64,000 nt of DNA, from NCBI RefSeq assembly GCF_018326425.1, contig NZ_AP024601.1:1600001-1664000 (forward strand), in the 5' to 3' direction. Origin of the DNA: Polycladomyces abyssicola. GTDB taxonomy: Bacteria; Bacillota; Bacilli; Thermoactinomycetales; JIR-001. The notes beneath the pieces were generated by a model. It saw only the letters and a list, made by a program, of their open reading frames with translations. It did not search any database and was not told where the DNA came from. Below, one piece after another: positions 36,618 to 43,029 of this stretch; position 1 is the stretch's first letter; each line of letters opens with the position of its first letter. Both the position numbers and the translations under genes were made by a program.

Positions 36618-38102
36618 TTATTGGAACCTCGCAAGGAATTTAGCGTAATTCAGGGGATTTAAAAAAGCTTTATGGATGGTCTCTTTGTCATAGGTTTTGT
36701 ACAACGAATCTTTGGCCGGTTTTGAATTGGATTCAATCAGATACAGTTGTCCCTTTTCATCCAAAGTAAAGTCAATCCCCATTTCACCAAAAGGACCATA
36801 TGATCGTTCGATACACTTATACACCTTGATTAAAAATTTATCCATTTTATTCCTTGTAGTGTTTGGAAAATGCTTTCCGAATTTCTTAAGAAAGTCATCC
36901 AAACAAAGCACTTTGGAACCGGATCGCGTACTGGTTATGGGACAACCTTTAACTCCCAATCTAACCGCAATGGAATTGATTTCAACTTCCCCCTTTCCAT
37001 TTCTTTGAAGTGTGGCCCGCATATCCACGTTTCGACCGCCGATTTGCACCGTACGAATACCATGTTGCATTAGGAGAAGATCTTCTCCGAAGAACGATTT
37101 GATTACCGGATACAAATCAGAGAAATCCTTTTTCAACCCTTGAACGAGTATTTTTCGAAAATAACTATACTCATATTGACCGTCTTCTCTCTTTTCGATC
37201 CGCATCACCCGACATCCCATACTGCCGATAGAGGCTTTTAGGTAAACGACAGGACTTTCATACAACATCTTTTTTAGTTCTTGAAAATTAAATAATTTCG
37301 TTTTGGGGAGATGCGGTTTCATCACCTCATACTTGCTCAACTTTTGGTGTAGATCCCATTTGTCGAAGTAATGTTGGGCATTAATGCTTGGTATGGACAT
37401 CTGGTGAAATCGTTTGCGGATTGCCTCGTGCTTTTTGGATTTTCTCGATATTCTTCTACTGCACTTATCATATAAAATATCCATAAGAGGAAAATTACTT
37501 CTTTCCCATTTCTCGCTTCGAGGGTTAAACCAGGTACCAACCACCTTTTTTTCTGGTAGACGAACATCCTCAATAGAAAAGTAGTAAATCAATGTTTTTG
37601 CGCTGGTATTGGCTTTAACCGTTTCAATGTCCCTGAAGGTGGGACTTTGTTTTTTCACCAGCTGCTGGATACGTCGTTTGGTTACAAAAATCCCAATAAC
37701 CGGTCCGAAATGTAGAACAGGACCATTGGTTTTCAGGTTGCATGAAATATCCTCATCAATCCCGCATTTTTTAATTAAATTCTTAGATAGACCTACCTTG
37801 TTCAATGTTTTATTGGGAAAACAACGAACCCGGATCTTCAATTGCCCTAATTTGAAGACGGCAATCGGTTGGGAAGCTTTATAGAGCCGTCGAGGAAGGG
37901 AAATCGCATATTTATTTGCACCTTGACTTTTGATGCGATACAAAGAGACCACATTGCTTTTGTCTTTACTCACTAATAGCCCACCTTTATCTAGTTTGTT
38001 CCCATGGAAAACCAAACTGCTGTTGCCATGATAGACTGGAAGTCGGACGTGAGCCCCGCTTGCTATGACCGCTTCGTACGGGGCGCGAGGAACGAGCACC
38101 AA
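36618..38102 (-). CDS. YheC/YheD-type ATP-grasp protein, full length
   Basis: Up to 494 residues. The first 200 or so residues form the YheC/D N-terminal domain ('LVLVPRAPYEAVIASGAHVR'); the rest is ATP-grasp: 'MKPHLPKTKLFNFQELKKML', 'VVYLKASIGSMGCRVMRIEK', 'LLMQHGIRTVQIGGRNVDMR' and the metal-binding end 'GEMGIDFTLDEKGQLYLIES'. In Bacillus such proteins are found with the spore coat. ATP-grasp enzymes form amide-like bonds through acyl phosphates; the substrate is unknown. The TTG/GTG start has no good ribosome site and the frame is open to about 38190. It lies 96 bp beyond the phosphonate operon. Confidence 0.8.
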   Translation of the reverse strand: MVLVPRAPYEAVIASGAHVRLPVYHGNSSLVFHGNKLDKGGLLVSKDKSNVVSLYRIKSQGANKYAISLPRRLYKASQPIAVFKLGQLKIRVRCFPNKTLNKVGLSKNLIKKCGIDEDISCNLKTNGPVLHFGPVIGIFVTKRRIQQLVKKQSPTFRDIETVKANTSAKTLIYYFSIEDVRLPEKKVVGTWFNPRSEKWERSNFPLMDILYDKCSRRISRKSKKHEAIRKRFHQMSIPSINAQHYFDKWDLHQKLSKYEVMKPHLPKTKLFNFQELKKMLYESPVVYLKASIGSMGCRVMRIEKREDGQYEYSYFRKILVQGLKKDFSDLYPVIKSFFGEDLLLMQHGIRTVQIGGRNVDMRATLQRNGKGEVEINSIAVRLGVKGCPITSTRSGSKVLCLDDFLKKFGKHFPNTTRNKMDKFLIKVYKCIERSYGPFGEMGIDFTLDEKGQLYLIESNSKPAKDSLYKTYDKETIHKAFLNPLNYAKFLARFQ

Positions 38103-38198
38103 ATAACAAAATTGACTGTAATGGAAAAGAACGTCCGATTGCCGTCTTTTTGATGACGGACTAGGGCGTGTCAGGGAATTGAGTCGTACAATTCTCGG

Positions 38199-38951
38199 CT
38201 ACGAGGTACCCTTTTTATATGCCTTAATTCGACGATACATCCTTTGGTCTTTTATTTTACGGAAGTGGGTCAGCATTGGGAACGTATTCGCTTCGATAAT
38301 CCAGACATGGCCCTTCTTATCCAGTCCCATATCCAATCCGTAAATACGATGGTTGGGATATCGTGAAGTCAATCTCCGGGCCGACAACAAAGCGACCTTT
38401 TCGATTTTGGACAGGATTTTTTTTTCGGAAAGATGTTTGAGGGAAGATTTTCGGATCGCAGATTCAACCATTAGCACGGTTCCTTTGCTTCTAGCATTGT
38501 TCGTGACAATGTAACCTTTTCCCGCCAGTTTAGCCACTTTCCCCGTCACTCTCCATGAATTGGAGTTCTTTTTTCGTCGTTGAACGATCACCCGTATATC
38601 AAAAGGGCGGTTACGGATTTCGGGCAGTTGAACCCGCTGCTGGACCATATAGCGACGGGATCCGATCATCCTCTTGATATAGTCATACGTCTTTTGGAAC
38701 CCTCGAATCTTTTTCTTTTTATTCTCGTGGTGGATTTGGTAATGTTTTCCTCCTAACGGTGATACCTTGATCACGCCAAACCCTCGTCTCCCAACGACAG
38801 GTTTCAGAATCACCTGTCCGTAGCGGGCGATCATTTTCCGTAACGCTTTAGCGGTCAGAAGCTTTGTTTTCGGCAAATGGGATGCCAACCGAACATCCTT
38901 CGCCATAAACGAATATCTCAACCATTTGTTTTTTTTGAGGATGCTGTTCAT
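38199..38951 (-). CDS. YheC/YheD-type ATP-grasp ligase in the phosphonate operon
   Basis: 250 residues, only the ATP-grasp part of the family. 'SHLPKTKLLTAKALRKMI' starts the fold, 'VILKPVVGRRGFGVIKVS' carries the ATP-binding lysine and glycine-rich loop, 'FDIRVIVQRR' follows, and 'IYGLDMGLDKKGHVWIIEAN' has the Asp/Glu/Asn metal ligands. It starts 3 bp after the transaminase stop, so it belongs to the operon for 2-aminoethylphosphonate. The natural reading is that it ligates AEP, or something bearing AEP, to a carboxylate; this is inference. Confidence 0.85.
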   Translation of the reverse strand: MNSILKKNKWLRYSFMAKDVRLASHLPKTKLLTAKALRKMIARYGQVILKPVVGRRGFGVIKVSPLGGKHYQIHHENKKKKIRGFQKTYDYIKRMIGSRRYMVQQRVQLPEIRNRPFDIRVIVQRRKKNSNSWRVTGKVAKLAGKGYIVTNNARSKGTVLMVESAIRKSSLKHLSEKKILSKIEKVALLSARRLTSRYPNHRIYGLDMGLDKKGHVWIIEANTFPMLTHFRKIKDQRMYRRIKAYKKGTS

Positions 38952-38954
38952 CTA

Positions 38955-42130: not shown

Positions 42131-42227
42131 ACGATCCTTATCCTTTCTATCCTTTCCAATATGTCCATTATGTTAATTTTTTTTATAATATGTACTGAGC
42201 TGATCATTTGCTTAGACTCCTACGAAA

Positions 42228-42256
42228 ATAAAAAAAAAGCCCATCACCGGGCTTAA
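42228..42256 (-). terminator. Intrinsic terminator of the ATP-grasp gene at 42280
   Basis: On the minus strand AAGCCC and GGGCTT form a 6-bp stem and a run of nine T follows. A degenerate form is found at 45287-45312 behind the second copy. Confidence 0.8.
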
Positions 42257-42279
42257 AATACAGAAACAAATAGAGAAAA

Positions 42280-43029
42280 TTATCTTGCAATCTTCCTCAT
42301 ACGCTGAATTTTTCGATACAGGGTTTTATCAGGTAACTTTTTAAAATTCGCCTTAGTTAACGGTTCAATATTTACCTCGTAAATCCATATCCTCTTCTTG
42401 CGGTCGATTCCCATGTCCACGGCGAACTCTTTGAGATTCGGATACATTCGACTCACATTTTTGACCGTTTTGACGGCACACTCCTTCAATCGCTGGATCA
42501 TTTTTACCGATTCTTTACTGGAATATTTCAAATGTCGGGTAAAGAGTTTGTAGATGGGTGTCGGGGTACCGCCCAAATGAGATGTTGTCACAATACTTCC
42601 CGGTGCCCCCAACCTTCCGCAAATCCCACCAACCACCCATTTACCGTGGATTCTCAACACATGGCAACGGAGATCAAAGTGCCGCCGATTCTTTGTCACA
42701 CTGTCAATAGCCTGTTGAATGATGTACTTTTTACCTTTTGTCAGGCGGTACACTTTTTTCCACAGATTCTTCCGATCTGCATATTTCTTGTGGGATCCGT
42801 ACCTTATTTTAAATCGGTGATCTTTTAACCTTTCGATCCGTATCACTCCTCTGGATTTAAATCCTTTGTCCGGTTTGAGGTAGACCTTATCATGTTTTTT
42901 AATCATTCGCTTCAGCGAATTTTTGTAAAGTAGCTCCGTTTTAGGAATATGGACGGCGATCTTAGGAGTGTGAATAAGCTGGTAAGCAACCGCTAGCTTG
43001 CTTTTAACGTGGTGTTTTTTTATGGACAT
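42280..43029 (-). CDS. YheC/YheD-type ATP-grasp protein, copy 1
   Basis: 249 residues, very basic. 'IAVHIPKTELLYKNSLKRMI' and 'KVYLKPDKGFKSRGVIRIER' start the ATP-grasp fold, 'YIIQQAIDSVTKNRRHFDLR' follows, and 'EFAVDMGIDRKKRIWIYEVN' carries the metal ligands. It differs from the copy at 45351-46100 at about 22 positions by eye. It is transcribed toward pepM but has its own terminator, so it is a separate unit. AAGGTGG precedes the ATG. The substrate is unknown. Confidence 0.85.
   Translation of the reverse strand: MSIKKHHVKSKLAVAYQLIHTPKIAVHIPKTELLYKNSLKRMIKKHDKVYLKPDKGFKSRGVIRIERLKDHRFKIRYGSHKKYADRKNLWKKVYRLTKGKKYIIQQAIDSVTKNRRHFDLRCHVLRIHGKWVVGGICGRLGAPGSIVTTSHLGGTPTPIYKLFTRHLKYSSKESVKMIQRLKECAVKTVKNVSRMYPNLKEFAVDMGIDRKKRIWIYEVNIEPLTKANFKKLPDKTLYRKIQRMRKIAR

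Follow-up and report, generated by a model that had tools for sequence, protein, structure and literature searches.

A stretch of 64,000 nucleotides from the genome of Polycladomyces abyssicola (contig NZ_AP024601.1, positions 1,600,001 to 1,664,000 of the forward strand), the whole of which we call the window, carries on its minus strand a compact unit of four genes, pepM-ppd-phnW-YheS_B. Three of them are predicted to make 2-aminoethylphosphonate (AEP), and the fourth probably codes for a ligase dedicated to it:

41237..42130, minus strand: pepM, phosphoenolpyruvate (PEP) mutase, 297 amino acids (TIGR02320, PF13714 and the motif EDK-x5-NS)
40089..41237, minus strand: ppd, phosphonopyruvate decarboxylase, 382 amino acids (TIGR03297)
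38955..40073, minus strand: phnW, 2-aminoethylphosphonate aminotransferase, 372 amino acids (TIGR03301)
38199..38951, minus strand: YheS_B, single-domain YheC/D-type ATP-grasp ligase, 250 amino acids, the proposed AEP ligase (PF14398)

Genes pepM and ppd overlap by 1 bp (base 41237), and the gaps that follow measure 15 bp (ppd-phnW) and 3 bp (phnW-YheS_B). This agrees with an earlier note on this DNA, which had described the four minus-strand genes as overlapping or lying within 16 bp of each other and had read the EDK-x5-NS motif in PepM, where it is present as IEDKLFPKTNSF. The AEP-making steps are predicted from matches to three NCBIfam equivalogs: PepM reaches 391.9 bits against a cut-off of 319.55 (TIGR02320), Ppd 412.9 against 312.5 (TIGR03297) and PhnW 397.1 against 360.8 (TIGR03301). 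YheS_B matches PF14398 over residues 8-242 of 250 with 188.1 bits (cut-off 26.8, E-value 2.2e-55). It also exceeds the cut-off of the TTL family PF03133 (32 against 20.1) by a match confined to residues 166-231, and TIGR00768 (RimK) is absent from its profile matches at E<=0.001. The span 36618-43029 considered earlier does include an ATP-grasp gene within the unit; that gene is not the single one of its kind there, as the span has three PF14398 genes.

The unit is conserved within the order. The PepM model matched in 18 of the 42 genomes sampled, and over its cut-off in 11; we mapped these 11 loci (the window standing for its own genome) together with one sub-cut-off locus, in G039, where no YheC/D gene was labelled. 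The four genes are consecutive in 10 of the 11 pepM genomes, amid flanking genes that mostly differ, so that the gene order which the earlier note had proposed to search for is kept, with the ligase beside phnW. In the eleventh genome, of the same genus (G015), similarity to the ligase stops after about 22 codons: at L042:12086-12364 the start of YheS_B passes into unrelated sequence beside an intact pepM-ppd-phnW, through either a rearrangement or an assembly break. A profile built from the ten ligases of the order scores its own ten at 393-448 bits, and the next matches in the order at 283 and 233.

In a sample of 398 genomes of the class, pepM was found at E<=1e-80 in 34 genomes (36 places), and the ligase profile was applied to the best six candidates per genome. 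The YheS_B type (>313 bits) occurs in 19 of the 398 genomes, the next genome scoring 297 bits; ten of the 19 had served to build the profile and nine had not. All 19 have pepM, as against 15 of the 379 others. The ligase adjoins the AEP genes in 18 of the 19, lying elsewhere in G301, and in one genome it is fused to PhnW. The genomes with pepM and without the YheS_B type are of several kinds. PepM is fused to PntC in four (G078, G190, G278, G327) and PntC to PhnW in three (G118, G123, G378). Five resemble other phosphonate clusters, to judge by a PepM of low similarity and by matches to Ppd and PhnW that are weak or missing (G181, G191, G210, G256, G260). Those remaining are G015, with its truncated ligase, and G219 and G376, with other YheC/D genes nearby.

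A scan of GTDB species genomes, which confirmed 393 places and was read for the best 80 of them, overlaps the order and class samples and extends this picture. Thirty-nine loci (40 ligase genes) score at least 305 bits, a line set after a gap in the scores was seen, and AEP genes lie within 4.5 kb in 36 of the 39. The hosts of these high-scoring loci belong to Thermoactinomycetaceae, Paenibacillus, Brevibacillus, Cohnella, Alicyclobacillus, Halalkalibacter, Chengkuizengella, Gordonibacillus and Gorillibacterium. Whole-genome searches for pepM at E<=1e-60 behind 20 loci (7 of the 39 high, 13 of the 41 low) found it in five genomes, all behind high loci (L055, L066, L069, L067, L072), and in none of the 13 genomes of low loci. 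The three high loci without AEP genes nearby (L055, L066 and L069) thus have pepM further off in the genome. Two others, L070 and L079, have kept ppd and phnW beside a degraded pepM, the loss extending into ppd in L079. L120 (Aneurinibacillus), where pepM and ppd stand beside a ligase of another branch, is the only such case in the 41 low loci. The canonical order is found for 30 of the 40 ligase genes, and in the 25 of these 30 units that were measured the ligase start lies between -59 and +25 bp relative to the phnW stop, the overlaps being partly due to uncorrected start codons. A second YheC/D gene lies directly upstream of pepM for 20 of the 40 ligase genes (in L074 it is a long-type gene split into two open reading frame (ORF) pieces), a frequent feature that the earlier note overlooked. 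In P. xerothermodurans (L071:5983-7425) the ligase frame continues through about 230 residues of Arg-, Gly-, Ala- and Pro-rich repeats.

The ligase type is also marked by its residues. Among 94 distinct sequences of at least 200 bits, His229 is present in 49 of 49 high-scoring and 0 of 45 low-scoring ones, and Arg154 in 49 of 49 and 8 of 45, respectively; the 49 include L006, a partial copy of the window's gene. The histidine stands in the context E-x-N-x-x-P-x-x-S-H-F or close variants of it. Its split and the AEP linkage are not fully independent, because the score split was derived from AEP-linked genes. In genes read from the class loci, the histidine is found in 19 of 19 high and 0 of 11 low ones, and all 120 listed database homologues (of 565, the window's protein among them) have it; in two of these the F that follows is replaced by I or V. 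On the tree the His type requires two changes, which is compatible with one origin or more. A sample of 398 genomes of the phylum gave, at E<=1e-70, only the window's own genome and a weaker match in G763 (241 bits, no His229). Lys50, Asp207, Glu220 and Asn222, which YheS_B has besides Arg154 and His229, are invariant in the 120 aligned rows; we take these four to have their familiar ATP-grasp roles, with Asn222 binding metal. The segment carrying His229 presumably corresponds to the one that borders the pocket for the amine substrate in D-Ala-D-Ala ligase. The predicted model of YheS_B has an ATP-grasp fold (predicted local distance difference test, pLDDT, 94) and resembles TTLL6, ArgX and RimK.

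We place the ligase with the AEP genes, and regard YheS_B as probably dedicated to AEP, on four grounds: the linkage is conserved, ligase type and pepM co-occur genome-wide, one residue is specific to the type, and there is one fusion. PepM would convert PEP to phosphonopyruvate, Ppd would turn this into phosphonoacetaldehyde, and PhnW would yield AEP. YheS_B would then use ATP to turn the carboxylate of an acceptor into an acyl phosphate, and attack by the AEP amine would give an amide bond, as the fold, the conserved ATP-grasp residues and the linkage suggest. AEP has no carboxylate and could therefore enter an amide ligation as the amine partner only; its amine is a likely substrate of YheS_B. 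His229, seven residues past Asn222, and Arg154 would be the best candidates for recognition of the phosphonate. A ligase of a second type, YheS_U, often found upstream of pepM, may prepare the acceptor. This would have its source at another place in the genome, and our first guess, weakly held, is a protein or peptide of the spore surface. Judged from sequence, we find it reasonably probable that the unit combines AEP synthesis with a likely AEP-dedicated ATP-grasp amide ligase, whose acceptor is most probably a peptide or protein. A narrower version, in which AEP would be an amide-linked tag on Glu or C-terminal carboxylates of spore-surface proteins, put there by a TTL-like ATP-grasp ligase, is a tentative and somewhat doubtful extension. 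The earlier note had the ligase attaching AEP by its amine to a protein or peptide, possibly on the spore: the link between ligase and AEP has stood, while a promoter signal for the spore and an acceptor gene travelling with the unit have not appeared.

Several observations weigh against this reading. The Fisher p-value for co-occurrence of the YheS_B type with pepM (1.4e-23 over the 398 genomes of the class) is uncorrected for relatedness, the 305-bit line was placed with the scores in view, and the PhnW-ligase fusion could be an assembly error, since it comes from a single genome. G219 and G301 carry an other-branch ligase beside ppd or phnW; G301 has two YheS_B-type genes, both away from its AEP genes, and G219 also has a pepM-ppd-phnW set with no adjoining YheC/D gene. 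G376 has only a divergent YheC/D gene, on the opposite strand, and in G094 a single locus holds the ligase type together with a PntC-like gene and a phnW that appears broken. Weak PntC-like matches (25-36% identity) occur in 16 of the 42 genomes of the order, including 6 of the 11 with pepM (G004, G006, G007, G010, G011, G036). The fold of YheS_B ties, within 1 Z, with that of the small-molecule ligase DcsG (16.3) and is near those of carbamoyl phosphate synthetase (15.9) and DdlA (15.7), and because of this tie it does not single out a protein acceptor. Finally, in a crude scan for sigma E, K and G patterns, the sigma-K pattern was found in 2 of 33 operon upstream regions (shuffled mean 0.7, with 22 of 200 shuffles as high), its relaxed form in 3 of 33 against a shuffled mean of 2.4, and the sigma-E and sigma-G patterns in 0 of 33.

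The alternative that survives best, which we still consider rather unlikely, is that the product of YheS_B is a small, diffusible peptide of AEP such as an aminoacyl-AEP, a phosphonopeptide like the phosphonoalamides or rhizocticins. The ties of its fold with DcsG, near Ddl, would suit such a product, and phosphonoalamides are built from phosphonoalanine by ATP-grasp ligases (PMC11867202). The two YheC/D genes that often flank the AEP genes (20 of 40) recall the two phosphonoalamide ligases. A count of neighbour families over 52 loci (ORFs of at least 70 amino acids, families in five or more loci) returned, besides YheC/D and AEP genes, an ATP-binding cassette (ABC) transporter family in 8 loci, KamA in 7, a membrane protein in 5 and a Mur-ligase-like family in 5. 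The transporter would fit export of a peptide, as might the putative membrane protein, which is confined to Paenibacillus; however, no consistent exporter or resistance gene stands beside the unit in these loci, and its wide spread over many genome positions makes it look less like a patchy antibiotic cluster.

It is quite improbable that the substrate of YheS_B is an ordinary amino acid, ligated to an acceptor to which AEP is also added by another route, so that the linkage reflects a common destination. The abundance of YheC/D genes in the window's genome (24 PF14398 matches at E<=0.001, 22 over cut-off, the last four listed being short pieces) makes this conceivable, as does the presence of other types (YheS_U, YheS_C, YheL_A) near AEP genes. 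Indeed, because the genome is so rich in PF14398 genes, an ATP-grasp gene beside pepM is unsurprising by itself, and conservation is what counts. It is nevertheless one specific type, with its own His229, that tracks pepM genome-wide, close behind the phnW stop (-59 to +25 bp) and once fused to PhnW. That AEP ends on lipid or polysaccharide through nucleotidyl activation, the ATP-grasp gene being a hitch-hiker, is very improbable: PntC is fused to PepM or PhnW in 7 of 25 class loci outside the order and PntC-like genes are weakly matched within it, but the YheS_B type occurs in 0 of the 7 genomes with PntC fusions, and G094 is the only case seen with the ligase type and a PntC-like gene in one locus. 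The earlier statement that AEP has no nucleotidyltransferase partner holds for the window's genome, where one PntC-domain query gave no PntC-like match at E<=1e-10; it does not extend to the relatives, given the weak matches in 6 of 11 pepM genomes.

We thus return to the ligation of AEP to a peptide or protein and to its possible acceptor. The hosts of the unit are spore-forming genera, and a spore destination, for which family and host range speak, is purely hypothetical because the sigma patterns are not clearly above the shuffles. For comparison, the relaxed sigma-K pattern was found in 4 of 20 regions preceding other YheC/D genes of this genome, against 1.1, in loci that overlap and with some genes counted twice. 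In Bacillus subtilis, yheC and yheD belong to the sigma-E genes, and SpoIIID raises their expression (PMC517825). The YheD protein surrounds the spore as a shell, its function being undetermined (PMC7911427). In the loci scanned, the unit was not seen to be accompanied by a recurrent acceptor-like gene. Short acidic ORFs, considered as acceptors in cis, gave two matches there, neither convincing, and no recurring neighbour was consistent enough across the 52 loci to be taken as a partner. The ligase of T. dichotomicum (L054:5965-6816) carries at its C-terminus a tail rich in Glu, in which the element EEEAPxIYP is repeated and which may be a built-in acceptor; such a tail was not seen in the other homologues listed (120 of 565). 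A probe for phnX (AEP breakdown) gave no match, and its controls were equally silent.

Mur-ligase-like proteins also occur near AEP genes. In L152, L160 and L164 a YheC/D-type protein of 880-908 amino acids, followed by a protein of the Mur-ligase-like family, lies directly upstream of pepM-ppd-(PntC-PhnW). The protein of this size class in L152 contains a COOH-NH2 ligase domain and a YheC/D ATP-grasp domain, and the Mur-ligase-like assignment comes from L164 (both by Pfam). Putative Mur-ligase-type nucleoside triphosphatases, with GSAGK-T starts and clustering with the L164 protein, lie near the AEP module at L058:8942-10033 and L154:14641-16816.

The second ligase type, YheS_U, scores at least 314 bits with its profile (A3) in 6 of the 398 class genomes, a line drawn after the list was seen; all six have both pepM and YheS_B. 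The profile was made from G036, G040 and G342 and applied to the best six candidates per genome; in the other three (G079, G144, G174) YheS_U lies away from pepM. Genomes with lower scores still have pepM as far down as 272 bits, and those without it come below. YheS_U may thus act in the AEP pathway.

Further YheC/D-type genes and a KamA gene surround the unit in the window:

36618..37973, minus strand: YheL_A, longer YheC/D-type ATP-grasp, downstream, association uncertain (PF14398, 4e-68)
42280..43029, minus strand: YheS_C, second YheC/D-type ATP-grasp, upstream of pepM and outside the tight unit (PF14398, 4.7e-51)
43803..44906, minus strand: KamA-family radical S-adenosylmethionine (SAM) aminomutase, between YheS_C and YheS_D (TIGR00238, 226.5 bits, over cut-off)
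45351..46178, minus strand: YheS_D, YheC/D-type, further upstream (PF14398, 7e-52)

YheS_C and YheL_A are outside the tight unit. A terminator-like hairpin with a T-run, read by eye, separates YheS_C from pepM, and YheL_A begins about 225 bp past YheS_B (ORF 36618-38102; a GTG at 37973, preceded by AAAGGTGG, is its likely start). YheS_C and YheS_D are 91% identical and both fall on a different branch of the tree from YheS_B. The KamA gene flanked by this pair has Arg opposite Asp293 of lysine 2,3-aminomutase 2a5h; if Asp293 has the role we assume for it, the substrate may be acidic. A second KamA copy, 98% identical, lies at G000:C1:1871239-1872339 with more YheC/D genes nearby. KamA was rejected as a pathway member, being found in just 7 of the 52 loci; in the order it occurs in 17 of 42 genomes, at 18 places, 13 of them without a YheC/D gene within 1.5 kb. 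Other YheC/D clusters of the window's genome, some of their members short pieces, lie at C1:813703-818342, 1496324-1507658 and 1865445-1874854.

The unit proposes a substrate for one type within the spore-associated YheC/D family, and the residue rule, His229 after the E-x-N motif, separates this YheS_B type from its paralogues. A protein as acceptor would mean a new protein modification; if AEP is a tag on spore-surface proteins, it would give the protein layer a hydrolysis-resistant phosphonate coat. To our knowledge, amide-linked AEP on a spore-surface protein has no counterpart in any organism. The earlier note knew of no described pathway of this kind, and our literature search, with most subscription papers outside it, found no description of the unit. 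A 2009 survey of amidoligases reportedly treats YheC/D.

Compared with known systems, the conserved unit, whose ligase is probably dedicated to AEP, is a variant of known phosphonate chemistry. YheS_B shares the family PF14398 with YheC and YheD of B. subtilis and differs from them in being a single 250-residue domain with no N-terminal part before the ATP-grasp domain, and in its His229 and AEP linkage. TTLL, RimK and LysX-ArgX ligases modify protein targets. YheS_B is 18-20% identical to them over the aligned part, the substrates differ, and no carrier protein was seen beside the unit. The phosphonoalamide pathway (PnaA-D, Streptomyces and Bacillus) likewise starts from PEP and has ATP-grasp ligases clustered with pepM; there phosphonopyruvate is transaminated directly to phosphonoalanine, which two ATP-grasp ligases link to peptides (PMC11867202), whereas in the unit Ppd and PhnW would lead to AEP instead. 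The ligase of the unit is further set apart by its spore-forming hosts and, if PnaB and PnaC are of another family, by being of the YheC/D family. Pnt pathways include Ppd and aminotransferase steps. They share with the unit entry through PEP mutase and AEP itself (PMC6697681); the main text of that source does not use the word ATP-grasp. In Pnt pathways PntC activates the phosphonate with a nucleotide, whereas the unit has an amide-ligase-type gene beside phnW. It would thus represent a second logic for AEP, direct ligation at the amine end by one enzyme type, shared by several families of spore-formers.

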